Under the pieces are notes generated by a model, which was given only the letters and a program-made list of their open reading frames with translations, did not search any database and was not told the DNA's origin. The position numbers and the translations under genes were made by a program. Below, piece after piece: positions 133 through 23,592 of a stretch of DNA of 23,934 bases (position 1 is the first letter of the stretch; each line of letters begins with the position of its first letter). Origin of the DNA: a virus; the IMG/VR virus record IMGVR_UViG_3300021962_000650, positions 1 to 23,934 of that record, one strand, 5' to 3'.

Positions 133-2880
133 CTAGCTGAACGCCCCTGGATTGCAAGCGCCACGCAGCTCTTCGTCGGACATCTGATACGTGAATACAC
201 GCAGTACCTTAAGGCAAATATGCCCGCCATTCCCCCCTGCGTAATCCGCTCCAACCCTAAAATAATTGAATGTCGGCACGCTACCACTTGTACTGGTGTA
301 TACGGTTCCGCCATTTGTACAAAGCTTGAAGCTGTTATTTTTGTAGGAAAAAGCGACTAAATTCACTGTTCCAGGTCCATAAACAACCCCTGGGGCATCA
401 ATGTCCTCTTGCACAGATCCGCCACTGTCTAAAACCGTCAAATTATGGCTTAAGTCATTTTGATAACTCAAACGCATAACGTTAACAGTATTCGACGAAT
501 TGCTTATATGCATTAAAACCCTAGAATAGCTGGAAGCTAGTTGATTTAATGCAGGTAAGTTGTATGCAAGAACTATAGTTCCCTCACTACCATTCAGCAT
601 ATTTTGCGCATTGGCAGTGCTAGATGATGAAAAAAAACTAGCGCCAAGTGTTACGTTTACGGTAGCTGTAGGAATAGCGCTACATAGGTCTGGAACAGAG
701 GCCATTGTTGGATAAAAAACCACTAAGCCCTTATTAGTGCTTCCCGTATAACTTGACTGACCTGAATCGTCTAAAACATAAATATAAAAATTTGCGGTAC
801 TAAGCGTTCCTGCTACCCCGTATATAGCTACGCGAACAAGCCCAAGACCTATGTACTCTATGTACGTTCCTTGAAGCGCTCCATCTCCAGTAGAACCAGA
901 AGAAATAACCGTAAGAGTTTCTGTATTGAAGTCTGCGTAAAAGTTATGCGTTCCATCTCCAAACAAAAGACGCACATTCTTTCTTCCAGCAAAAGATTGC
1001 ATTACATATACGGAACACGAGTACGGTTGGCCAGAGGTTATAGAAGCATAGTTTTTGTATACATAATGCTCCCCGTTAGCAGTAGTCTCAAAGATGGTTC
1101 CGGGTCTAGCAGTAGCCGTAGCAGAATTTGAAACAACATATACATTTCCAGATGAATACGTGGTATTTACTTTAGTCCACACCGCCGATGAAAGCTCTGG
1201 AGTAGGCAATGCCGTTGCGGACCCCTCTAGCAAAAGTCCTTCCACATAGCGTAAAGTTGGGTACTTTTTTGAAGGAGAAAAATTTTCTCGCCATATTGGC
1301 ACGTAATTGCTAGCAGACGCAGATAAACTTATAAACGCTTGGCTAAAATAAAATACAGAACTGGAACGAGTAAAGGTTAGCCGCCCATCAACTATTGCTA
1401 GAGAGCTTGATGCTGTTGTGATCCCACGAAAGTCATAGTTTATAGCTGCTTTAGTCCGATATATTGGGGATACTAGAGGTAATTTTGGAAGCATTCTATC
1501 TGGAGGATACAACGCGGACCAAACTCCAAAAGTAGTTAATAAAACTGGCCCTAGACTAGCAGTAACAGGAACAGTAGTGCTGATTAAGCTTAGGTCTGTA
1601 CCAGTTGGCATTAGCCCCGTTCCTATAGCACTTATACCCTCTACATTAGCACTTATAGCATAATTATTTTGTTCTATCCGTACTGCAACGCCGTACTCTT
1701 TATACTGTTGAAGTTTTTCCAAACCCCCAGATTGAGGTGAATATACGTCAGCAACCGAAGCTGTTCCGTACCAAACATTTAACCTAGCGCCCGTAGAAGA
1801 ACTATTTGGGAACATACACCCAAAACCATTCCCGCCAAGGTAGTTTCCAAGCAAGCCTCTCGGTCTATTTGTGACAGAAAGAGGGCACGCATCATTTGCC
1901 ATAAACCTCATGTTTAAAAGTAAGGTCACATTATTTTGTGCGGAAGCAAAAGTTATTACATCGGGTTGTCTGGTTATTGCACTAGAAAACGTATTTCGAA
2001 TATATGAGCTAACTTCTAATTCGGCAGAACCAGATGTTTCCTCCAACTGGGCGCCCCAAAAATACACACCCTTAGTCGCGTCTCCGACGTAGGAAAACCC
2101 GCCGTTATAAATCCCGAAGTCTATTCTCCTAGGATTTATAGAAGAAGGGCAAGAACCGCACAAAGCTATCCTGTACCATCCAGTTTGGTATGGTTCTATA
2201 TAAGCATAACTTATGGCAGCAGAGCCAGATGTGCTGGTGGTTATGGTCCCGTTAGTCAAATCAAAAATTGCATAATAAGAGCTAGTGCCACTGTTTACTC
2301 TTAAATAGACATTATCCCGCCCTAAACTAGGTTTTACGTAAATTGATTGCCCAAACGTAATCGTAGATGTTACAGCACTATATGAATACGACAATAAATG
2401 TTCACCATTTGCAGTGGTTTCATATACTCCATCAGCATTTTGCGTTCCATCAGGAGAATTTGTCTCATCAGTAGCTATGGTAATGTTTGTCCGATCCCCA
2501 GAGTTCCAACTAGAAAAAGCTTCGGAATAAGAGATCTGATTTACAGATCCAGGCTCAAAAAGACAACCTAGCCTCTCTAGAGTATATGGATGGTAGTAGG
2601 GTCGAAAAATATTCGTGTTTACAAATTCAATATATCCAGACGAATTAATTGTTGACCTGATATTGCTTCCAGTTGCGTTAGAAAACGTTAGTCTATTGTC
2701 TAACGCATGCATTTCAACAAAATTAAAAAAGGAACGAGGAAAAGGGTAGTTGTATAAAGAAGGCCATGTAGCGGGATCGTTAAACGTTTCCACATCGTCA
2801 AGCGTCCACATGCCAGAGGCGGCAATATTTGTCGGCTCTGTCTGATCCGCAGTTATTACATTTTTAAGATATTTAGACAT
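133..2880 (-). CDS. large spike/fibre protein with duplicated ~440-residue module
   Basis: A 915-residue Ser/Thr/Tyr/Gly-rich protein, almost certainly a virion appendage binding the host surface. It contains two copies of one architecture. Residues about 63-300 and 500-740 each start with an RLTF motif (RLTFSNAT, RLTFTRSS), continue through a segment holding the identical string ETTANGEH (about 154 and 598), and end in strands like 'Y.A.F...T.T'. Each is followed by a concanavalin-like stretch beginning NVTL. The last 50 residues (LKVLRVFTYQMSDEELRG) look like the end of a LamG-type fold. The RLTF/'N...S..F..W' pattern resembles, from memory, phage head-spike or tailspike fibre domains. I chose ATG 2880, eight bases after the preceding stop, over an in-frame TTG at 2898 that would overlap it. 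The ribosome site is weak (AGG), so translational coupling is likely. No enzyme motif was recognised. Confidence 0.75.
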   Translation of the reverse strand: MSKYLKNVITADQTEPTNIAASGMWTLDDVETFNDPATWPSLYNYPFPRSFFNFVEMHALDNRLTFSNATGSNIRSTINSSGYIEFVNTNIFRPYYHPYTLERLGCLFEPGSVNQISYSEAFSSWNSGDRTNITIATDETNSPDGTQNADGVYETTANGEHLLSYSYSAVTSTITFGQSIYVKPSLGRDNVYLRVNSGTSSYYAIFDLTNGTITTSTSGSAAISYAYIEPYQTGWYRIALCGSCPSSINPRRIDFGIYNGGFSYVGDATKGVYFWGAQLEETSGSAELEVSSYIRNTFSSAITRQPDVITFASAQNNVTLLLNMRFMANDACPLSVTNRPRGLLGNYLGGNGFGCMFPNSSSTGARLNVWYGTASVADVYSPQSGGLEKLQQYKEYGVAVRIEQNNYAISANVEGISAIGTGLMPTGTDLSLISTTVPVTASLGPVLLTTFGVWSALYPPDRMLPKLPLVSPIYRTKAAINYDFRGITTASSSLAIVDGRLTFTRSSSVFYFSQAFISLSASASNYVPIWRENFSPSKKYPTLRYVEGLLLEGSATALPTPELSSAVWTKVNTTYSSGNVYVVSNSATATARPGTIFETTANGEHYVYKNYASITSGQPYSCSVYVMQSFAGRKNVRLLFGDGTHNFYADFNTETLTVISSGSTGDGALQGTYIEYIGLGLVRVAIYGVAGTLSTANFYIYVLDDSGQSSYTGSTNKGLVVFYPTMASVPDLCSAIPTATVNVTLGASFFSSSSTANAQNMLNGSEGTIVLAYNLPALNQLASSYSRVLMHISNSSNTVNVMRLSYQNDLSHNLTVLDSGGSVQEDIDAPGVVYGPGTVNLVAFSYKNNSFKLCTNGGTVYTSTSGSVPTFNYFRVGADYAGGNGGHICLKVLRVFTYQMSDEELRGACNPGAFS

Positions 2881-2888
2881 TGGTGTAC

Positions 2889-3149
2889 CTAGGCCCAAAC
2901 TGTGTGCGGAGTTGCAGGGGGATCAAGAATAAGAGGTGTGATGTGGTGAAATTCTTTTTCGCCATACAAAGACCTGAGGTTTAAATGATAACCCTCAACT
3001 CCCGGTATTTGTCCAATCGCGTCAATTGCGTATTCTTCGGCTAGATTGTTTTCCCAACAAGACGAAACCAATCCCTCTTTCTCCAGGAGCGAAAACATCT
3101 CCTCTTTAGAAGACGCCCTTAAAAAATAATCAAAAATATTAAGTTCCAT
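2889..3149 (-). CDS. small conserved phage protein between fibre genes
   Basis: An 86-residue, mostly helical protein with an acidic N-terminus (MELNIFDYFLRASSKEEMFS) and a Pro-rich tail ending DPPATPHTVWA. The segment around residues 40-60 reads AIDAIGQIPGVEGYHLNLRS. Similar small proteins ending in a 'TP.T/R.VWA' tail sit among fibre genes in aquatic phages as I remember them, but no function is known to me. It starts 11 bases inside the end of the LamG fibre gene and has no clear Shine-Dalgarno site, so it is probably translated by coupling with that gene. Sandwiched between two large fibre genes, a role in fibre assembly or a small structural part of the appendage is possible, but this is inference from position only. 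Confidence 0.6.
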   Translation of the reverse strand: MELNIFDYFLRASSKEEMFSLLEKEGLVSSCWENNLAEEYAIDAIGQIPGVEGYHLNLRSLYGEKEFHHITPLILDPPATPHTVWA

Positions 3150-5334
3150 ACGCGGTGGGGAAATCTTCTGTGGGTACTGTATAACTGCTACCCGTATACC
3201 TGTTTATTCCAGCTGTTAAGCGTATTGGGCCAAGATAGCTGTTCCACGAAACCGAACTACCACCCACAGTCCCTAAAAAATCAAGGGTTGTAGAAGAAAC
3301 AACAATATCTCCGTATCCGGTATATGTCCTAGTACCATCACGATAAAAATCAATCCCAGATCCCGTATTGACTAGAGCAAAATGACTCCATTGCCCAGTA
3401 ACAAAAGTTCCCACCTGTGTTCCAGGTGACAATCCACCCGCCAGTATTTGTAACGTTCCGACGTCGTTTTTAAAAAAAAGACCTAAAGAATCGCAAAGAG
3501 CCATGTCAATAGAACCGGAGGTATTTGTTAGGTAATACCACAACTCCAAAGTACACTTGGCACCGGTCCGAAATAAACGTTGAAAGTGCGTGTTATACTG
3601 AGTAAATAAAACACTCATTGGACGGTCAGCTGCGACACTAGGAAAATACAGTGTTGGTTTGCCAAACAATAGCTGCCTATTAGAAAGAACAAAAGCACTA
3701 TTGCTATAACTCACAGCTTTTCTAGCTTTATCTACATAAACCCCATTATTCTCTACCCCAAAAAGTAAAGTGGACTCAGTAGCGTAGTTTTTATAGGTGT
3801 CTAAAGGATCAAATCCTGAGGTATAAACGGCTTCGTTAGATACTTTTATGCCAGCGAAAAAGCCATTATTATACGTGGTTCCAGAAACCCCAATACCGAA
3901 AAACTGAGACCCACCCCCTACAATATTATTTACTGTAGCTAAAGAATTATTAGTGCCAACATTTCTGCCGTTTAAATAACAGGTTAGTTCCCCATTTTGG
4001 CGCACCAAAGCCAAATGCATCCAGTTACGATTGTTCCCTTGCCCCGTTGTTGGGCTAGTTATTACAGTATTAAATGTGTAGCTAGCATTAGCAAGTGTTA
4101 TTGAAGGAAACCCGCTAGTCAATCCAAAAATTATCCTAAAACCAGTTGCAGTAGTTAAATTGACACTATCTGTGTATAAATAAGTATTTACCGCGTTTGT
4201 TGATACGTTGCTTGAAAACCAGCCCTCAATTGTAAAATCCCCCGCTAGCGTTCGGTGCCCATCCCCAACCGAATCTGCAGAATAAGGCCATATCTGGCCG
4301 GTTGGAGTACACAATGCTCCTAAGTTTGGAAAAGCGTCAAAGCCATACAAATTTACAGGAAGGTTTTTATCAAACGGGGAAAACGGAACTTGTGGATTTA
4401 TAGCAGTAGTAGAATTAAAAACGGTATAGTTATTTGGGCCATCGTCTTTGTAAAAAAATCCGTTACAAATAAGCGCGACAGTATTTGTCTCCGTAGGGCT
4501 TAATGGTTCTGAAGGAACAGTTAAGGAGGCTCCTGTGTATAAGGCAGTGCCATTCAATATTCTGAAATTTGAAACATGCCCAGTCAGGTAGTTTGCGGCT
4601 ACTGATCTATTCCCTAATCTCCAAGTGTTTGTAGTTATGGAGGTACTGTTAGTGGCTATGTTATCTAATAAAACACCGTCAATATATACGTAATAAGTGT
4701 TCCCGCTAGTTCGACAAACTGCTATGTGAACCCATTTATTTCGTTGAAAGGTACCGTTTGTAGCAGAAGCCACTATATCCGTACCGTTTACGTAAACTAG
4801 TAGTTTGTTTGTGCTGCTTGTAAAAGCAACGGCTAGTTCTGCTGTTGTGGTTGTTGGGCTTGTAGTAAAAATATATGGCGTTGCAGCTGCCACATAATCT
4901 ATGTAGATAAAGAACTCAACAGTAAAATCATTAGTGTTTAGAGCTAAAGATGCTTGCCCTGTTGGCAAAAATAAGTATGTGTTTGCGCCATAAAACTGAG
5001 TAGACCAATACCCGTTTTTTTGTTCTAAAGGGAAACAAGGCCCTTGCGTTATTATTACGTTGGAACTACCTTGCGTTGCAAGAGGGTAATAATTTTCTTT
5101 AAAATAAATTGAGCTATTGGTTGTGGCGGGAAATTTATTATTGTAATTATCGACTACTGTTGCATTTGGGTTTGTGCTAAAGCAAAACATCACATAGTCC
5201 CAATAAGGGTCTTTTGGTATTCCTCCATTTTGCTCTAAAACCGCTTGGTCAACTAAATTTAGTTTAGCTGGGGCATCAACCGCCAAATCAGAAGACTTAG
5301 CTGGTAGGAGGGAGTAACTTCCCTCTAAAGACAT
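3139..5334 (-). CDS. fibre/receptor-binding protein with three LamG-like lectin domains
   Basis: A 731-residue protein made chiefly of three concanavalin/LamG-like modules at about residues 105-290, 330-530 and 555-731. Each shows the family signature of a central strand 'W-x-H-h-A' (WVHIAV at 201, WMHLAL at 438, WSHFAL at 649) followed by a 'Y-x-(D/N)-G' turn (YIDGVLL, YLNGRNV, FYRDGTR) and a closing 'NFRI/GIKV/PIRL...Y' strand. LamG-type domains commonly bind carbohydrate, so I infer a receptor-binding or decorating fibre subunit. The N-terminal 100 residues lack a recognised fold and may attach the protein to the virion. The start is firm: ATG 5334 overlaps the previous stop by one base (TAATG) and has GAGGAG upstream. 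Composition is AT-rich compared with the packaging and capsid genes. It resembles many environmental phage fibres in general form; specificity cannot be told. Confidence 0.8.
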   Translation of the reverse strand: MSLEGSYSLLPAKSSDLAVDAPAKLNLVDQAVLEQNGGIPKDPYWDYVMFCFSTNPNATVVDNYNNKFPATTNSSIYFKENYYPLATQGSSNVIITQGPCFPLEQKNGYWSTQFYGANTYLFLPTGQASLALNTNDFTVEFFIYIDYVAAATPYIFTTSPTTTTAELAVAFTSSTNKLLVYVNGTDIVASATNGTFQRNKWVHIAVCRTSGNTYYVYIDGVLLDNIATNSTSITTNTWRLGNRSVAANYLTGHVSNFRILNGTALYTGASLTVPSEPLSPTETNTVALICNGFFYKDDGPNNYTVFNSTTAINPQVPFSPFDKNLPVNLYGFDAFPNLGALCTPTGQIWPYSADSVGDGHRTLAGDFTIEGWFSSNVSTNAVNTYLYTDSVNLTTATGFRIIFGLTSGFPSITLANASYTFNTVITSPTTGQGNNRNWMHLALVRQNGELTCYLNGRNVGTNNSLATVNNIVGGGSQFFGIGVSGTTYNNGFFAGIKVSNEAVYTSGFDPLDTYKNYATESTLLFGVENNGVYVDKARKAVSYSNSAFVLSNRQLLFGKPTLYFPSVAADRPMSVLFTQYNTHFQRLFRTGAKCTLELWYYLTNTSGSIDMALCDSLGLFFKNDVGTLQILAGGLSPGTQVGTFVTGQWSHFALVNTGSGIDFYRDGTRTYTGYGDIVVSSTTLDFLGTVGGSSVSWNSYLGPIRLTAGINRYTGSSYTVPTEDFPTAYGT

Positions 5335-11692: not shown

Positions 11693-12601
11693 TTACGCAG
11701 CACCGGGAGAGCCAAACATGCCCCGGGGATCCGAGAATCCGAAGCTGTAGCGCTCACGAGCCTTGTACCGCACGTTGCCGGTGTCGAAGTCGCCTTCGAA
11801 AGCGGTTTTGAGCTGTACACGCTGGAACATCTTCATGCCGTTGGGGGCGTCGGTCTTGATGAACCAAGCGTCCGTATCGGTCAGGAAGTGGTTGACAACA
11901 TAACCCTGAGGGATCATGCCCATGTTGCGGATAGCGTTGATGTCGTTATCAGCAGTTCCAACACGGTCTTGCGACTTCATCAGACGCTCGGCCGTAAATT
12001 GGAGTTCTTTGGGGATGATCAGCTTCAGGCCACGAACGGCGATCTTCAAGCCACGCTCGTCGGTGAACGCGGCAATGTCGATCAAGGCCTGCTCAAGCGA
12101 GGTCTCGTTCAGGTCTGAGGCAGTCGTCAAGGTGTTGCTGAGGTTGGGGCCGCCAAGAGTGGGGTGAGCGGTGCTGAAAAGAGCAACGCCGTCGCCACCG
12201 ATCGAGGTCGTGAAACCGTTGTTGAGAACGGAAGCAGCCTTGATTTGCTTGGTTTGAGCCATGGAGCGGGCCAGAGCCTTGGTATAACGAGCCGAAAGCT
12301 TGTCATACAGGTTGTCTTCGATGGCCTCTTCGGTAAGAGCGAAGGCCAAAGCGACGGTCTGGTGGGTATAGCGAGCCGTGAAGACTTCCTGAGCGTCGTC
12401 ATACTGAACGCCAGCACCTTCGGTTTTGACCGGAGCCTCACCGAAGCCAGAAAGCATCACTTCCTCTTCGAACGCACGATCCGAGGACTCAGTGTCATAA
12501 ATCTGAGTGTGCTCGCCTTCGTAGTTCTTGTACTCCATGCCGAACAGGGCATTCAATCCCGGCTCAAGCTCTTTTACTAGTTGGGCACGTGAAATTGCCA
12601 T
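11693..12601 (-). CDS. major capsid protein
   Basis: A 302-residue protein with the look of an HK97-fold capsid subunit related to Mu-like gpT types: an N-terminal helix (MAISRAQLVKELEPGLNALF), an E-loop-like charged region (YEGEHTQIYDTESSDRAFEE), a central spine helix (FALTEEAIEDNLYDKLSARY), the 'LFSTAHPTLGGPNLSNTL' loop typical of these capsid proteins, the strand RGLKLIIPKELQFTAERLMK and a C-terminal P-domain-like part (NHFLTDTDAWFIKTDAPNGM) ending FGFSDPRGMFGSPGAA. It follows a scaffold-like gene and two capsid-associated genes, has a strong AAGGAG site and is followed by the window's best terminator, all expected for the most abundant virion protein. Its base composition is GC-richer than the fibre genes. 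The role is confident; the precise family is inferred. Confidence 0.85.
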   Translation of the reverse strand: MAISRAQLVKELEPGLNALFGMEYKNYEGEHTQIYDTESSDRAFEEEVMLSGFGEAPVKTEGAGVQYDDAQEVFTARYTHQTVALAFALTEEAIEDNLYDKLSARYTKALARSMAQTKQIKAASVLNNGFTTSIGGDGVALFSTAHPTLGGPNLSNTLTTASDLNETSLEQALIDIAAFTDERGLKIAVRGLKLIIPKELQFTAERLMKSQDRVGTADNDINAIRNMGMIPQGYVVNHFLTDTDAWFIKTDAPNGMKMFQRVQLKTAFEGDFDTGNVRYKARERYSFGFSDPRGMFGSPGAA

Positions 12602-15278: not shown

Positions 15279-15517
15279 TAGCAAATCTTTGTCAGGTTAT
15301 CTGCGTCTTTTCGTTTGACGTAAGTCACCCTACCGCCAGTAGCCATCTTTTTGGCCTTACCAGCAGTAGAAAGTGCGATTGCAACAGCCTGTTTCTGAGC
15401 TTTTTTCTTAGATTTCGGCTTCGAAGTACCGATTTTCCCGGTCTTCGAGAACTTGCCCATCATTTCACTGACGTTGCTGCTGATTGTTTTGCTGCTGGAA
15501 CCTTTCTTGAGCGGCAT
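15278..15517 (-). CDS. small basic protein of the MPLKKGSS...KQAVAIALS type
   Basis: A 79-residue basic protein: [60 protein letters not shown], then [19 protein letters not shown]. The '[13 protein letters not shown]...l' opening and KQAVAIALS core are a well-recurring small phage protein type in my memory (a DUF6496-like family, unverified) with no known activity. The start at 15517 is fixed by an AGGAG site seven bases upstream; the frame is open further up but only inside the portal gene. It overlaps the portal's 3' end by 53 bases in a different frame. The MATGGRV motif near the C-terminus matches GG-type motifs elsewhere in this window. Confidence 0.75.
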
Positions 15518-17912
15518 TTTGATTACTCCTTTCCACTTGATTGATCCTTTCGCGCGCGATCGAAGCCTTTTCAGCCGCAATCTCTTCGTTCGATTGGAGT
15601 TTTTGTTGATTAAATGCAGCGTCCTGCTGCATGTCTTGCGCTTTTAGCGCCAAGTTTTGCTGATCAACCTGTGCTTTCCTCTCCGCATCTTGCGCTCTGA
15701 GCTGGAGTTCTTGCTCTTTGAGGGCAACGAGAGGATCTGGCGCGTTGGCTCCTGACATTTCTTGGGAGAGTTTTCGGAGTTCGGCCATTCCTTGAGCAAC
15801 AAACATGGCGACTTGAGCCTCTTTTTGTATATCAGAGACAATCGACATTCCTTCCGGGCCGTATGAAGCAAATATCTGCGCCTCAACCTGCTCTTCCGCC
15901 TTCAACCGCACGTGATCCAAGATGTGTTTGGTCAGAATTGCTGCCGCCAATGGGTTTCCTTGCACAATCGGGGACATACCTTGGATCAAATGGCACACAA
16001 TGTGCGCATCGTGCTGCTGTCCAGCAAAAGCCGTAAGGTTCTTGCCGTCCAATGAGTCCGCGTTTTCGCTTGCGGGATCCTTCGGGCGCGGATGCAACGT
16101 GTCATCAGGCTTGAGCAGCATGTCAATATCCTTGGTTCCCAAGGCCTCGTACATGCGGCGATATGCTTCATATATGTTGTGGATTTGAGGGGCACTCTGA
16201 GCCAGCTGAAGCTGGGTCTGAGCCATCATGATCTTCTGAGCAGTCGAGAACACATTGGGATCTGCGACTGGAATGACATCTACGCGCTCATCAAAGTCCT
16301 TCTTGAATACCTTTCTGTCTCCACCAACCACGTCATACGGGTACTCATCAGGCAGATACTTGGCAAAACAATTCGCCATGAGTTCAAACTCAAGCTTCTG
16401 AGCGTAATGCAAGCGCTTGTGAATACCAGACATGACCATCGCGCCACGCTCGAGCAACGCAATCGTCGTTCCAACAGCAGCCTGCTGATTGCCATCACCC
16501 ACCTGCATATCAGCAATGCTGGCGATCCTACGGCCCATGTCGATACAGAAGCCCAGAAGCGTAAACAGCGTCTGACTCGGCTCCTTGTACGGCAAAGGCA
16601 AAAGCGCTGAAGCCAGCTCAGCACCCCCCGCATCAATATCCCTGAACTCCCCAGGCTGCAACGGCTTGTCACTGTCCGCAATCCGCAGACCACGTGCCTT
16701 GAATCCAGCCGGCAGATTGGAGAACGTACCCGCATCAATCAGCTGCTGGAGCGCTGCGGTTGAGGCCCGATTAAGGTTCCCAAGTAGATGGACCAAGCCA
16801 TACCCCATACTGCCAGGGCCAGGGAGGAACATGTAGTGAACGTAATAATGTGAAGGGGCGTAGGTATCATCTTCTTCATCCCAGTTGCGGTAGATCGACA
16901 AAACCTTCCCGGAATCCTTGTCCACCGTAATGATGTACGGCAGCTTGAGCCCATCCTTGTGCTCATATCCCGGGATGTCATACAGCATGTGCGCTTCGAT
17001 GAGCGTGAACTCCTCATCTAGCTCATTTGGCGAGGTGCCGGATACTTTGTCCTCTGCATCCTCAATTTCACTGCTATCTCCCGCCGCAGCCGACAGCTCA
17101 ATATCCCGATAAAAGCCGTTTACTTGGTTAGTCCTAAGCGCATTGGCCGACATCGGCACAATCTGCAAGGACCGCTCGTTCTCCCAAGGATTGCTCGAGC
17201 CGTTGTACGGCATGACGAAGTTGTCCGGGGTGATGAACGGCGATACACAGCGCATCTTCGAGCGGTCAAAATAAACCTTCTTAAAAGCCGACCCACCGTA
17301 GCCCACGTACCAAAGCATCTGGTCGTAGTCAGGGGTGTATTCCTTCATGACCGTCGTGATCTGGTAGTTCATGAACTCTTGCACCCGCTCAGCCTGCATC
17401 TCACGGTTGCGGTTGCTCTTTCCTACTACCTGCGAGCGCACGGGCCCGCCCGCAGGCATGAGCTCTTTCATCGCCTGGGCAGAGAACTGGATGATCGCCT
17501 CAGCCAAAAGAGGTACATGGGCACCAGAGGCACCCCGGAACGGCTGGGTTTTCTCTTCATACTGGAAGCCAAGCAGCTTCATACCCTTGGCATAGGTGTT
17601 GGACCACTCTTCACGGCTCGCCAGATCAGCGTCCAAAAGCAGCAGAATGTCCTGACCAATCCGATCAAGCTCGTCCTCATCAAGGCGCTCGGCCAAGTTC
17701 TCGGTGTGCTTGCTCTCGTATTCGTCTTCCTCAGGGCCCAAATTAATCGTGGCCCCACCGTCATCGTCCATCACAATCTCAACATCTTCCTCATCCATAG
17801 GGATGAGCGCTTCGGTCATTTCGACCTCCATCTCACCTTCCGGCGCCATGTCTTCGCCAGTCAAGGCTCGCTCAATGTTGTTGAACGGACTGCTCTTTTG
17901 TTTTTTAGCCAT
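15465..17912 (-). CDS. portal protein
   Basis: An 815-residue portal subunit, of the large podovirus (P22-like/aquatic) kind by length and layout. After an acidic leader (residues 15-95) it has the clip/wing pattern: [20 protein letters not shown], then [37 protein letters not shown] and [17 protein letters not shown], followed by the beta region [20 protein letters not shown]. The helical crown/stem part includes [20 protein letters not shown] and [20 protein letters not shown] (the 'Q..VGT..ALLE+g' stem helix is highly characteristic). The last 90 residues are a Gln/Glu/Lys-rich coiled coil, likely the barrel. The portal forms the dodecameric channel for packaging and ejection. Its position after terL and before scaffold and capsid genes is standard, except that a large ejection-type gene intervenes. 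Its ribosome site is modest (GAG). Confidence 0.85.
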
Positions 17913-17914
17913 TA

Positions 17915-20900
17915 TTACGCTCTATCATAAAGTGGTTTGTCCACCAGTCCGCCTTTAGAAAAGCGGATTCCTCTTTGAGGCAAATTTGAAGCATCGTCTG
18001 GAAGCACTATACCCCAACGAATGACTTCATCACCTGCTTCGTTTATCGTCTTAAACTCTCGAGCCTCGTAACCTTCGCCAAGATCTTTGGCAACTTTTTT
18101 ACTCACCCGTTTCATGATTGAGGGAGAGTACTGGCTCATGTCTTTTGCCTTTTTTGCTTCTTCCGTGGCCCAAGTGCCATATATTTGTGGCTGTCTTGAG
18201 TCTGACCCCGGGAATAAGACAAGTTTTTTATTAAGCTGTGCTGCCCCGGCTACTGCTGACTTCATCATTAGCTCAGACGCGGTATCCTCATCCGTAGCAA
18301 ACCCAGGGTAGGGTTCTTCTATTCCTTTTCGCTTGCCTGCAAACAAGTCCTTCCTGCGATCTGATTGAAGCTCAGTAAACAATAAAGCTTCTCCTGGTTT
18401 TAAGTTTGCGGGAGGATCGACAATATCCGACGGGTTTAGCTCTACAAAACGAGCAAAAGAAACTGGATTTTTTCCAGCAATCTTAGCGTGCAACAAAGGC
18501 TCGTATAACTTGCCGCTCTGCAACGTGTCGGAATCAAGCATTCCTTGCGTCAAGTTTCTTAGATCCTTAATAACTTCGTTTTTACCGAAATTTAAAACCG
18601 TATCGTAATCGCGAAGCACCCCATTTACTTCGGTTGCAAAGTCTTGCATTCTTTGTGCCATGTACTGTGACTTATTTGGATCACTTGCTTCGCGATAAAA
18701 ATCGTCAAGGCCAATCTTTAGCGCATCTGGAGAAGACGACAATCTCCCTAACATGTCTCGTTCATACCCTGATAGTGTGTTTCTTAAGAGCGTGGCATAT
18801 GAACTTCCTGAATTAATTGTTTTATTAAGCTCTTTTAAGTAGTTCACTGTTTCTATTTCTTTGGCAGCCATTGTGGCTACTTCTGGTGTAAGCGTAGTAA
18901 CGCCTCTTTTTCGAAGAAGATCTTTTACTTGTTGCGGCACAGTTTTTTCAGGGTCATTCCAATTAACTAGCCATTTGTTTTTTGGATCTAGCCCTGGAGT
19001 TGTTACATATCGCCTAGCTAATGCCAAATCAACAATCGGTCTAGCTTCACTGGCTATGTCTTGTGCTGCCATCTTCACCGACCTAGCTACTTGTGTATCA
19101 AACTCATCCACTCGATCTGCAAGGTTCATCACTTCACGTGCGTATTCGGCTATGTACGTCGGGTCATTGCCAAACACAGTGGCAGTAGATTTGTTGGCCC
19201 TAAAGTCTTGAATGTCTTCAACAATAGAGCCTATTTGTTTTTGCATTGCCCCTGGCTCAAGCAATAGATTTACTGAGCCTATGGGGCGAGCTGGGTATGG
19301 ATTATCAATGTCCCTTGAAAATCCTTCCCTCCCAATATCACTTGCTTGTAGCACTTGAAGCTTAAGTCGCTGAGGAGAAGTCCTCTTCAACGCCGACATG
19401 ATTTGATTTGGCGTCACTTTGTCCGTGGACCCAAAGTCTTCCAGCGCTTCTTCTACTCGCCTTATCTCATAGCCACGAGCTTTGTTTTTCAACGAATTAA
19501 GAAACTGCCCCTTCTGTACTGGGCCAGGAAGGTCTGCAACAAGGCGCTCAAGCTCGCCTACGAACGGGCGCTCAGGAGACGGCGACAACAAACTCCTATC
19601 AACTTGTTCCTTTTGTTTAGGAGTCGAAGCACGTTTAAAGTCATCCAAAGACCACCCAACCGACGTGTCCACAATAAGTTCTTGCTCGCCCCTGTGACCA
19701 AATCCAAGTACATGTCTTGGAGTCAAAGGCACTTCAGCCAAAACTAAATCTTCTCTTCCCTGATTTGGAGCAAATCTACGGAATGCGTTTGCAGCGTCTT
19801 TAGAAAGCGAGAAGGACAACAAATCGCCCACATCTCCGGCTTTTAGCGCTTCAAACTCTTCTTTGGGCATGAGCCGATATCCCATGAACTGATCGCCAAA
19901 GTACTTTTGAGCTATGGCTTGAGATTGCTGGGTATACTCCGGTCCGCCAGGAACTTCTCTCAGGTAATACTTCGCATCTGCATCACCAAGATTTCCCACT
20001 CCACCAATGTGAGCAGAAAGAACATTGTCTACCTCTGAGCTAACTGGAAACTTGTCCAACTCTTCCGTAGCACTCACAAATAACCCAGGATTTATTTTTG
20101 TAGGCGCTGCAGCTGGAGCACCCAATGACGCAATGCCCTTCGTGTCGGCCATCGCCCTGTAGACATCGGTTGGCTGAAGGGCCTCATTGCCCGTGATCTT
20201 CCGCACCATCGCCGTCGAGGCTTGCTCCACAGGCATCTGAATGCCCTGGCCCACAGCACCAGGACGCAATGCAGCACTGGCCGCATAGGTCTCCGGCAAC
20301 GCCGCATCTAATTTACTGCTCTGCAAAAACTGGCCGATATTCTGTAGATACTCTGGGGCTACCTTGCCACGCGGCACATACGTGCCCGCCTTCATTACGT
20401 CCGCAGCAGCAGCTTCAGCCTCGCGCACACCCGCCTGCGTGCCGTACTTGTCAGAGGTCAGGCCCTTGAACGCACCATACGCAGCACCCGCCGGCCCAGA
20501 CACCATGCCACTGAGCACAGACAGGCCAGCCTCACCCGCACCTTTGATCTTTTCCAGCAAACTAGCCTCTTCGACAGTCTGCGGCTCACGCACTACACGG
20601 CCCTGCTCATCCAATAAAGGGACTTCACCTAGTGGACCACTGCCCTTAGCGCGGCCCACCACCTTTCCCGATTCACGCTCCGCCTGCAATTCCCTCAAGG
20701 CGGCCAGCATCTCTTCCTCATTGGCATTAAGCGAACTAGGCTGTAAGGCCAAGCCCAACGGAAACCCACTCTTTGTCGCCAATAAAAAGTCCGTAGGGGA
20801 GATCTCATTTTCTTTGAGCCACTGCCCCACCCTCTCCATCATCCCGCGCTTGTTTACGTCCCCACCGTCCTTAAATCCAAAGCCAGATAGGTTGTATTTC

Positions 20901-22120
20901 CCCGGATCTTGGATCACGTCCAATGCCAACTGCCTCCCGGGCGCCTCTCTTTCTACCTTCTTTCGACCTTGCTCTACCTGTGCGTTCTTTAAATCAACAT
21001 AAGCAGCAAACGACTCCGGGTCAAAGGGCAGTGTTGGCTCTTTGGCCTCGAACTTCACATTAAACTCCCCCGGATTTTTCACCGTAGGGTTGAAGTTGGA
21101 CGTCCTAGGGCCCGCGTTCCACGCCTCCGCCTGCCGGTTGTACTCCTCGGCCTGCTTTTGCCACTGATCCAACAAGCTGTTGTACTGATCTACCTTGCTC
21201 TGATACTCCTCAACCGCTTGGTTATACCCAGATAGCAACTGCTGATTGCGTTCAATAAACTCTCTATCCCCTGGGGCATAATCCGCAGCGGGATCTAAGT
21301 ACCAATTAGGCGCCGCCGGTAAACTCGTTCCTCCAAAAACAAAGCCACCATCAGCAAAGCCCTGCACCTGCGCTATTTGGGTCCGTGGTTCTTGTTCCAC
21401 GGGCTGTTGCATCCCAGCCATGATGTCAAATGGCGATACATACTCCTTCTCCGACGGCGTAAAAGTCTTCGCTAACAACGCTCCACCGCCAGAAGGGCCC
21501 GCCTGCGCGTATTGCTCTTCCTCCAACAACCGCTCAAGCTCCTCCTGAGCCCGATCCACCGGATTTCCCTCCGGATCTGTGTCCGTGAAGTACTGCAAAG
21601 ACAACGCCGCCTTATACGAAGCAGGCAACATCGACACATCCGTCAATGCTTCACGTGGTGTGGGCGCTAACTTACGTCCAGGAGCCGGTTTATTCTGAGT
21701 TTTTGCAAGCTGCGTCTTGAATTTTGGGTCTTTTTTGGCTAACTGAGCCCGCTGCATCACCTTTTCACGGTACGCAGCCGTCTGACGGGACTTTCCAACA
21801 AGGCTTGGACCACCGTTATACGCCTCAAGCGCCTTGCCCACGTCACCATTGAACTGCTTTAGGTTGTCCCGCATCAATCTTGCCGCTGCATCGACAGATT
21901 TCGCCGGATCAAAGGGGTCATCCAACCCATAAGCCTTGGCCGTGGACGGCACAAATTGCATCATCCCCTGCGCTCGACCACTCCTGGTCCTTGGACCAAC
22001 AGCATCGGGCCGAAAATCCGACTCCACCGACGCTATCGCCTTCAAAATTGCTGGGTCTACACCATACTTGGACCCAGCTTCCTGAAAAAGCGGGTCAAAC
22101 TGCGTCGGTTTCGAGGCCAT
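17915..22120 (-). CDS. large virion/ejection protein: lytic transglycosylase plus ADP-ribosyltransferase-like and ELQSD domains
   Basis: A 1401-residue multidomain protein. Residues about 8-125 are a soluble lytic transglycosylase domain: KAIASVESDF with catalytic Glu E33, GMMQFVPSTA at 52-61 and EAYNGG at 99-104. Residues 295-335 are a Gln-rich coiled coil, and 525-555 a Gly/Ala-rich hydrophobic stretch that could contact membrane. Residues about 700-825 fit the R-S-E ADP-ribosyltransferase pattern: GYRL (R749), LLSFSLSKDAANAF (S769-F-S771), GEQELIV (E812-x-E814). The C-terminus holds TELQSD (1249-1254) with Tyr/Lys-rich strands, a motif I recall in large phage 'polyvalent' proteins. GG motifs recur (FADGGFV, FKDGGDV, FSKGGLV). 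A role as an ejected protein that opens peptidoglycan and acts on host components is inferred. The gene has a good AGGGGA site. G+C content steps up sharply near 20,100. Confidence 0.7.
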   Translation of the reverse strand: MASKPTQFDPLFQEAGSKYGVDPAILKAIASVESDFRPDAVGPRTRSGRAQGMMQFVPSTAKAYGLDDPFDPAKSVDAAARLMRDNLKQFNGDVGKALEAYNGGPSLVGKSRQTAAYREKVMQRAQLAKKDPKFKTQLAKTQNKPAPGRKLAPTPREALTDVSMLPASYKAALSLQYFTDTDPEGNPVDRAQEELERLLEEEQYAQAGPSGGGALLAKTFTPSEKEYVSPFDIMAGMQQPVEQEPRTQIAQVQGFADGGFVFGGTSLPAAPNWYLDPAADYAPGDREFIERNQQLLSGYNQAVEEYQSKVDQYNSLLDQWQKQAEEYNRQAEAWNAGPRTSNFNPTVKNPGEFNVKFEAKEPTLPFDPESFAAYVDLKNAQVEQGRKKVEREAPGRQLALDVIQDPGKYNLSGFGFKDGGDVNKRGMMERVGQWLKENEISPTDFLLATKSGFPLGLALQPSSLNANEEEMLAALRELQAERESGKVVGRAKGSGPLGEVPLLDEQGRVVREPQTVEEASLLEKIKGAGEAGLSVLSGMVSGPAGAAYGAFKGLTSDKYGTQAGVREAEAAAADVMKAGTYVPRGKVAPEYLQNIGQFLQSSKLDAALPETYAASAALRPGAVGQGIQMPVEQASTAMVRKITGNEALQPTDVYRAMADTKGIASLGAPAAAPTKINPGLFVSATEELDKFPVSSEVDNVLSAHIGGVGNLGDADAKYYLREVPGGPEYTQQSQAIAQKYFGDQFMGYRLMPKEEFEALKAGDVGDLLSFSLSKDAANAFRRFAPNQGREDLVLAEVPLTPRHVLGFGHRGEQELIVDTSVGWSLDDFKRASTPKQKEQVDRSLLSPSPERPFVGELERLVADLPGPVQKGQFLNSLKNKARGYEIRRVEEALEDFGSTDKVTPNQIMSALKRTSPQRLKLQVLQASDIGREGFSRDIDNPYPARPIGSVNLLLEPGAMQKQIGSIVEDIQDFRANKSTATVFGNDPTYIAEYAREVMNLADRVDEFDTQVARSVKMAAQDIASEARPIVDLALARRYVTTPGLDPKNKWLVNWNDPEKTVPQQVKDLLRKRGVTTLTPEVATMAAKEIETVNYLKELNKTINSGSSYATLLRNTLSGYERDMLGRLSSSPDALKIGLDDFYREASDPNKSQYMAQRMQDFATEVNGVLRDYDTVLNFGKNEVIKDLRNLTQGMLDSDTLQSGKLYEPLLHAKIAGKNPVSFARFVELNPSDIVDPPANLKPGEALLFTELQSDRRKDLFAGKRKGIEEPYPGFATDEDTASELMMKSAVAGAAQLNKKLVLFPGSDSRQPQIYGTWATEEAKKAKDMSQYSPSIMKRVSKKVAKDLGEGYEAREFKTINEAGDEVIRWGIVLPDDASNLPQRGIRFSKGGLVDKPLYDRA

Positions 22121-22128
22121 ACGGTCCC

Positions 22129-23592
22129 CTAATAATAAGAAAATTGGGCAGGAGCGCCCTCTTCATCAATCCAGTCCGAAGGAATAGTCAAGAAGTTGCC
22201 CTGGCGGAATCTCATGACCGCCTGCACCGCACTGTCGACCAAGTCATCATTCGCACCAAACGGAAACTCCGCCATCTCTTCAACTACTTCGACAGCCCAG
22301 TCCTCATCCGGGGCCCATACATACCCCGCTTCGAACACCGGTGAAACAGCATTGGCACGCGATACCTTGTCCGTCGCCCTGTTCCGACCACCCGGGGAAT
22401 AGTTTATCACCGGAATACCGGTTCTGCGCAACTCTTGAGATAAAGACATCCCAGCCGCCTTCGCCTCTATCAGCACGCAATCGGGATTCCAATACCTGTA
22501 CAACTCCAATGCTACACGCTTTAACTCCGGAAAATCCCACCGACCCTTCTTCGCATCAATCAAGATCAACTGCTCAGGATCATCCGGACTCGGACGAAAT
22601 ACCCCCCACGTCGTAATCGCAGAAAAGTCCGCCGTCTCCTTCTTCGAATACGCCGTGTCATAACTCTGAATGATGTAATGCAACTCCGGAACATAATCCT
22701 TGTTCCATACCTTCCACCACTCACGCTTGAATATCGCCCCCTCTTCAGCCGTAGGATTCTGCTGCCACTGCGCATTCCACTTGTTCACCGGCAACGCAGC
22801 TTTGACCGACAACAAAGCATCCACCGTCCAAAACTCCGGCCAACACGGCTTCCCACTCGGCATGATCGCCGGAAACTCAATCACCTCCCACTTGTCCGCC
22901 CTCGGATCCTTGGCCTGATCCGTCAACACCATCCCCGTCAAATCCGTCTTCGACCAACGAGTCATAACCAACAAAATCTTGCCCCCAGGCTGCAACCGCT
23001 GACGAGGACCAGACGTATACCACTCATACGCCCGCTCCATAGCCGTCTCCGATAATGCATCCTGCTCCGAATGCGGGTCATCAATAACCAAATAATTCGC
23101 ACCACGACCAGTCATCGCTCCACCAACACCAGCCGCAAAATACTCCCCACCCTTATTCGTCTCCCACCGCCCAGCCGCCTTACTGTCCGCCGCTAACGCT
23201 ACATTCGGAAAAACCTCCTTATATTCCTCCGAATCCATCAGGTTCCTCACCTTGCGACCAAACCGCATCGCTAACTCCGCCGTGTGCGTCGCTTGAATGA
23301 TCTTGGCATCCGGCTCACGGCCCATGAGCCACGCCAGGAAAAGATAAGACGTCAACTCAGATTTGCCATGACGCGGTGCGATATTGATGATGATTCGCGT
23401 GTGATCGCCCTTGATTAACTCTTCAAACTTTCTTGCCATGATTCTGTGATGCGGGCCACATATAAACTGGGGCCACACATAACGGACAAAGTCTAAAAAG
23501 TTCTCACGCGCACGCTCAAGGATTGCATCCTTAAGCTGCTTGTACTCCAGCCTAAGTATCTCGGCTTCCGGATCTTCGATCTCAACGGTCAT
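22129..23592 (-). CDS. terL: terminase large subunit (packaging ATPase-nuclease)
   Basis: A 487-residue motor protein of the Terminase_6-like type. The ATPase half has a variant Walker A, IAPRHGKSEL (71-80), Walker B with paired acids in YLVIDDPH (D171, D172), and the coupling strand KILLVMTRW (205-213). The nuclease half has the three expected acidic sites: SYDTAYS (D312), CVLIEAKAAG (E376) and NDDLVDSAVQA (D449/D450/D453). It cuts concatemeric DNA and pumps it into the procapsid through the portal. It is the first gene of the visible operon. No small-subunit gene lies between it and the terminator upstream, so terS is either beyond the right edge, elsewhere, or absent. There is no Shine-Dalgarno site before ATG 23592; the upstream bases are AT-rich. 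A 19-codon leader ORF overlaps the start. Confidence 0.9.
   Translation of the reverse strand: MTVEIEDPEAEILRLEYKQLKDAILERARENFLDFVRYVWPQFICGPHHRIMARKFEELIKGDHTRIIINIAPRHGKSELTSYLFLAWLMGREPDAKIIQATHTAELAMRFGRKVRNLMDSEEYKEVFPNVALAADSKAAGRWETNKGGEYFAAGVGGAMTGRGANYLVIDDPHSEQDALSETAMERAYEWYTSGPRQRLQPGGKILLVMTRWSKTDLTGMVLTDQAKDPRADKWEVIEFPAIMPSGKPCWPEFWTVDALLSVKAALPVNKWNAQWQQNPTAEEGAIFKREWWKVWNKDYVPELHYIIQSYDTAYSKKETADFSAITTWGVFRPSPDDPEQLILIDAKKGRWDFPELKRVALELYRYWNPDCVLIEAKAAGMSLSQELRRTGIPVINYSPGGRNRATDKVSRANAVSPVFEAGYVWAPDEDWAVEVVEEMAEFPFGANDDLVDSAVQAVMRFRQGNFLTIPSDWIDEEGAPAQFSYY

Follow-up and report, generated by a model that had tools for sequence, protein, structure and literature searches.

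We describe a protein of 1401 residues, encoded next to the packaging genes of an IMG/VR virus (record IMGVR_UViG_3300021962_000650), that is best explained as a whole as a polyvalent protein, carried in the virion and ejected along with the DNA, in which a lytic transglycosylase (SLT) domain and a scaffold are followed by an exchangeable cargo region. We consider this overall reading likely, including the provision that residues 690–830 of the cargo are possibly an ADP-ribosyltransferase (ART). The ART reading taken on its own, which derives from a motif and its context, is tentative. The window is the whole stretch of DNA analyzed here, all 23,934 bases of the record.

Gene Context and Domain Architecture

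The features of the window that bear on these readings are the following.

22129..23592, minus strand: terminase large subunit, TerL (phrog_38, E 2.5e-114)
17915..22120, minus strand: putative polyvalent (ejection-type) protein gene, 1401 aa, including the stop codon; a single open frame with TerL and portal on either side and matches to PHROG 342 and 2013 at the N-terminus
21773..22090, minus strand: SLT lytic transglycosylase domain, residues 11–116 (PF01464, E 1.1e-26)
20810..21310, minus strand: scaffold part 1, residues 271–437, common to relatives L091 and L093 (blastp E 5e-20 and 7e-19)
20105..20662, minus strand: scaffold part 2, residues 487–672, common to relative L087 (38% identity over 190 aa, E 2e-25)
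20105..20149, minus strand: module boundary, the GC3 change point at codons 658–672 (LR 66.6 against a permutation maximum of 20), at the place where L087 homology ends
19631..20053, minus strand: candidate R-S-E ART-like segment, residues 690–830 (motif only, without a family match)
19874..19876, minus strand: codon of R749
19808..19816, minus strand: codons of S769-F770-S771
19679..19687, minus strand: codons of E812-Q813-E814
17918..18427, minus strand: ELQSD module, residues 1232–1401 (65–73% identical to relative L085)
18359–18373, minus strand: ELQSD motif, residues 1250–1254
17918..17962, minus strand: C-terminal tail FSKGGLVDKPLYDRA, residues 1387–1401 (80% identity to L087; many siblings that are otherwise unrelated also end in a KGG-V tail)
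15465..17912, minus strand: portal protein (phrog_1216, E 1.2e-31; the DSL-LC04 portal is 56% identical)
11693–12601: major head protein

A preliminary description of this DNA had called the product an ejection-type protein with a lytic transglycosylase and an ELQSD domain. An ELQSD motif is present, the SLT domain is real, and the ejection-type character is well supported by domains and gene context alike. Besides the PF01464 match, E33, GMMQF and AYNGG can be read in the sequence itself. Residues 3–332 resemble phrog_342, a T7-type internal virion protein with an endolysin domain (E 1.2e-30), and when known phages were searched with tblastn the top matches were confined to this N-terminal SLT/phrog_342 part, with gp16-like internal virion proteins among them. 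From these matches and the gene order, the protein is probably packaged and ejected. It shares with T7 gp16-type proteins the N-terminal SLT domain and adjoining region, and likely ejection at infection, but its C-terminal two thirds are unrelated to them and its gene lies between terminase and portal. The SLT domain is joined to several non-SLT modules in one large protein that has TerL and portal as neighbors, which is the arrangement of a polyvalent protein.

Exchange of Cargo Between Relatives

Relatives that share the terminase and portal carry differing large proteins in the TerL–portal interval, and the pieces these have in common with the 1401-residue protein are separate ones in each case, a pattern of modular exchange. 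L087, whose portal is 72% identical, matches residues 487–672 at 38% identity and the final 15 residues at 80%; between the two it carries a different cargo with a weak PcfJ match. The common part in L091 and L093 is residues 271–437 only. L002 shares residues ~165–259 behind a different N-terminus, and L088 shares only the KGG-V-DKPLY tail, its own protein giving a weak PcfJ match. In L002 (L002:6821-7861; terminase 83%), a domain beginning RNNNPGNLRF replaces the SLT domain, so that the N-terminal domain seems to be exchangeable too.

Composition changes within the gene. GC3 falls from 0.605 to 0.388 at codon 666 (interval 658–672), the maximum LR of 20 given above being that of 1,000 permutations; the terminase, portal and head genes have GC3 values of 0.62–0.67. 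The break falls where L087 homology stops, at residue 672. A module has recently been exchanged inside one ORF, at codon ~666, and since the GC3 break and the limit of L087 homology fall together, the candidate ART segment lies in recently acquired cargo. Searched against 50,697 phage records, the cargo matched nothing, even at E 1. It diverges much faster than the portal, since L085, the nearest relative by portal (96% identical), is only 65% identical in the ELQSD module; the L085 sequence ends before the ART segment. Elsewhere in the window, two large tail-region genes (133–5334) have a GC3 of 0.32–0.34 against 0.62–0.67 in terminase, portal and capsid, a contrast that suggests a mosaic genome.

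The order TerL, large protein(s), portal is kept in HTVC027P, 023Pt_psg01 and DSL-LC04, where unrelated large proteins fill the interval. These resemble the present case in locus, in the large variable proteins found there, and in having a related terminase and portal. They differ in carrying other cargo, and no SLT or ART was found among those of their proteins that were scanned. The interval of DSL-LC04 holds a PcfJ-like protein (L082:9427-11904).

Motif Evidence for a Possible ADP-Ribosyltransferase

The preliminary description had placed a candidate R-S-E ART at 19646–20023, which corresponds to residues 700–825. Its named residues R749, S769, S771, E812 and E814 all stand where it put them, in the order GYR749, then S769-F-S771 followed by A..F, then E812-Q-E814; the pattern alone is unspecific. 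The part of the claim that is confirmed is the presence of the residues, and the part that is not confirmed is that the signature exceeds chance, profile and block scores being within noise and a loose form of the pattern occurring in 1,340 of 20,000 shuffles of the protein (6.7%) as well as in several unrelated phage ORFs. A strict form turned up in 3 of 20,000 shuffles; other phage ORFs, 403,523 residues in total, contained no instance. These figures are post hoc, the pattern having been written after the protein was seen, and do not amount to a p-value.

We compared the segment with 18 phage T4-type ARTs. The distance from R to S is 20 residues here and 24–27 in those measured; the short spacing had been flagged at the outset as a weakness, which is fair but not fatal. 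From S to E the distance is 43, against mostly 60–87 in the T4-type ARTs (one value of 47 was picked automatically and is probably from the wrong residue pair). In some other R-S-E ARTs the S-to-E spacing is near 40, so the value of 43 weighs only lightly against an ART. R749 is followed by Leu; each of the 18 T4-type ARTs has Gly or Ser at this position. The segment also lacks the P-x-G commonly seen behind E-x-E. SFS..A..F and EQE do occur in ModA/ModB relatives as well, for instance in EnC15 as SFSTDFNTARSF and DEQEW.

Profile, Structure and Homolog Searches

Residues 690–830 matched neither PF03496 nor a PHROG ART family, and the segment had no ART match in Pfam, PHROGs, NCBIfam or PDB sequences, even with relaxed limits. 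Among the controls, T4 Alt matches PF03496 at 5.8e-36, while T4 ModA and ModB match nothing in Pfam and ModB matches nothing in the PDB. Because such genuine ARTs also escape these libraries, the missing match is weak evidence.

Profiles were built from the T4-type ARTs themselves (nine Alt-type and nine Mod-type sequences). With the Mod profile in HMMER the query ranked 1,032nd among 2,280 sequences, at the level of noise; its best local match was residues 748–770, in the correct register. Scanned along the entire protein, a free-spacing block model trained on ModA and ModB was best placed at exactly R749, S769 and E812, with a score of 10.7 bits against 10.2 for the reversed protein and a rank of 34 in more than 1,750 sequences, unrelated proteins standing above it. 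The protein thus offers no better R-S-E candidate than R749/S769/E812, yet this motif is statistically indistinguishable from chance in the profile and block tests. Alignment of the segment with the Alt profile and with ModA/B by hhalign gave no signal; ModB against the Alt profile likewise fails (0.3% probability), so the power of this comparison is low. Genome searches with phrog_3895 and phrog_15144, intended to widen the ART profile, gave no matches.

A single-sequence AlphaFold2 model of residues 669–842 had a mean pLDDT of 38.7 and a pTM of 0.33, a confidence at which a fold search is uninformative; the order of strands and helices in this low-confidence model is compatible with an ART core. 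IMG/VR was searched with the complete protein and, separately, with the ART segment, the ELQSD module and each of the two scaffold parts; for the ART segment no homolog was seen there, nor among annotated phages, plasmids or 385 genomes of the class. Among genome contigs, the only one matching the ART segment was the alphaproteobacterial MAG contig JAURGE010000037.1 (L165), which carries it in identical copy, a possible hint of the host or a case of mis-binning. Weak matches in those 385 genomes (L176–L178) were rejected as homologs, since they lose the register of the catalytic motif and are chance-like matches to dehydrogenase-like proteins.

The ELQSD Module and the GG Tails

Modules containing EIQSD are found in ~45 sibling proteins at the TerL–portal locus, many of which end in a KGG-V tail. 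No support for homology between the ELQSD module and these EIQSD modules was obtained with hhalign, their likeness consisting of the motif and the tail. Siblings of 1300–1750 aa occupy the interval in L095–L163 (e.g., L095:963-5789); the FYSDIER/EIQSD module at their C-terminal end is conserved, and they have a KGGLV tail. Those scanned have almost no Pfam match, and tblastn (E<=0.01) against the 50,697 annotated phage records gave nothing for the module of one member. When the sibling C-terminal module was modeled from 14 sequences (pLDDT 65.4), the result matched no solved structure in the PDB at E<=0.001 and, among viral models, mainly one uncharacterised phage protein. A possible counterpart of the FYSDIER module at residues 853–959 (E 0.03–0.04) was dropped, shuffles and unrelated proteins scoring equally well.

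GG-V motifs recur where modules meet and at the C-termini of siblings that are otherwise unrelated, and the 1401-residue protein has internal GG pairs at residues 258, 263 and 419. A GG-V-type ending is seen in 53 of 168 ORFs of the interval against 40 of 318 other long ORFs, and so is not exclusive to the locus. The motif is perhaps a packaging or processing signal.

Relation to Known Systems

Polyvalent proteins with peptidoglycan hydrolases, and others with ARTs, have been described by Iyer et al. 2017 (PMC5512222), who predicted that they are packaged in the virions of phages with portal and terminase genes. ARTs are the commonest protein-modifying domains of that class; they are of the H-Y-D type, and R-S-E ARTs of the Alt/VIP2 kind are said to be absent from genuine polyvalent proteins (PMC5512222). 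Our protein resembles the class in its size and multidomain build, in adjoining terminase and portal, in combining a peptidoglycan hydrolase with several unrelated domains, and in modular exchange; lysozyme and ART domains are both known there. It differs in that the transglycosylase is the only one of the described domains recognised here, and in that the candidate ART would be R-S-E and theirs are H-Y-D. A 2022 survey (PMC9503650) reported Alt/VIP2 ARTs both as fusions to MuF and in the neighborhood of packaging genes. Given these precedents, the proposed architecture is not new in kind, and only an R-S-E type in a polyvalent setting would be.

The comparison with T4 Alt, ModA and ModB is similarly divided. 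The order R, SxS, ExE is common to all, SFS..A..F and EQE recur in relatives of ModA/B, and Alt is packaged and injected. Unlike these proteins, the candidate is without detectable profile similarity to them, has shorter spacings, Leu after Arg and no P-x-G, and is fused to an SLT domain and scaffold.

Alternative Readings of Residues 690–830

If residues 690–830 are an R-S-E ART, the domain, once injected, would use NAD+ to modify a host protein in the manner of T4 Alt. The ordered R, SxS with A..F, and ExE, flanked by hydrophobic residues, favor such an enzyme, as do the choice of R749/S769/E812 by the model trained on ModA/ModB, the recurrence of the serine and glutamate motifs in EnC15, the compatible order of predicted strands and helices at low confidence, and a context that fits. 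Set against this are a block-model rank of 34 with the reversed protein nearly equal, the HMM rank of 1,032, the departures in spacing and in the residues following Arg and ExE, and the H-Y-D nature of the polyvalent ARTs in PMC5512222. We regard the enzyme as possible but doubtful. The motif could instead be a coincidence within an orphan cargo domain of another fold, whether a large-polyvalent-protein domain outside the known classes or an effector other than an ART, and to this we assign slightly less than an even chance. Family, PDB and fold comparisons gave no evidence for an ART, and the loose pattern arises in shuffles and in several unrelated ORFs; on the other hand, the full strict arrangement, albeit fitted after the fact, is rare, and an independent ModA/B block model picks the same residues.

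It would also be conceivable that the cargo is purely structural, a channel or scaffold of the ejection machinery as in T7 gp16, without an enzymatic effector. The coverage of residues 3–332 by phrog_342 is in keeping with this, but the cargo has been swapped between close relatives while the scaffold was kept, and it has a distinct composition, features that one would not expect of an essential structural part; we think a purely structural role improbable.

A Model for the Protein

As a virion-ejected polyvalent protein, the 1401-residue product would enter with the DNA, and its N-terminal SLT domain, by analogy with T7 gp16-type proteins, would cut peptidoglycan during entry. The middle is a scaffold common to relatives, and the end a conserved GG tail. 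The cargo (about residues 667–1386) is exchangeable and, in this phage, recently acquired from a source with another codon composition, as the GC3 break and the L087 swap show, and we infer that it acts within the host cell. Its segment 690–830 may be a highly diverged R-S-E ART that modifies a host protein, or else another effector or accessory domain. The most specific version of the model is a strongly diverged Alt/Mod-like R-S-E ART carried as exchangeable cargo in a virion-packaged, wall-cutting polyvalent protein, with the TerL–portal interval as a site at which effectors that are injected to modify the host are loaded and exchanged, the entry scaffold ahead of them staying fixed. We consider it rather unlikely in this complete form.

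If the ART is real, the theme of virion-delivered ARTs, so far T4-like or MuF-fused, would come to include a polyvalent protein with a transglycosylase, and the locus would show how such effectors are exchanged. Even without an ART, the sharp cargo boundary beside the portal gene marks a place in relatives of HTVC027P and DSL-LC04 where injected effectors could be mined systematically.
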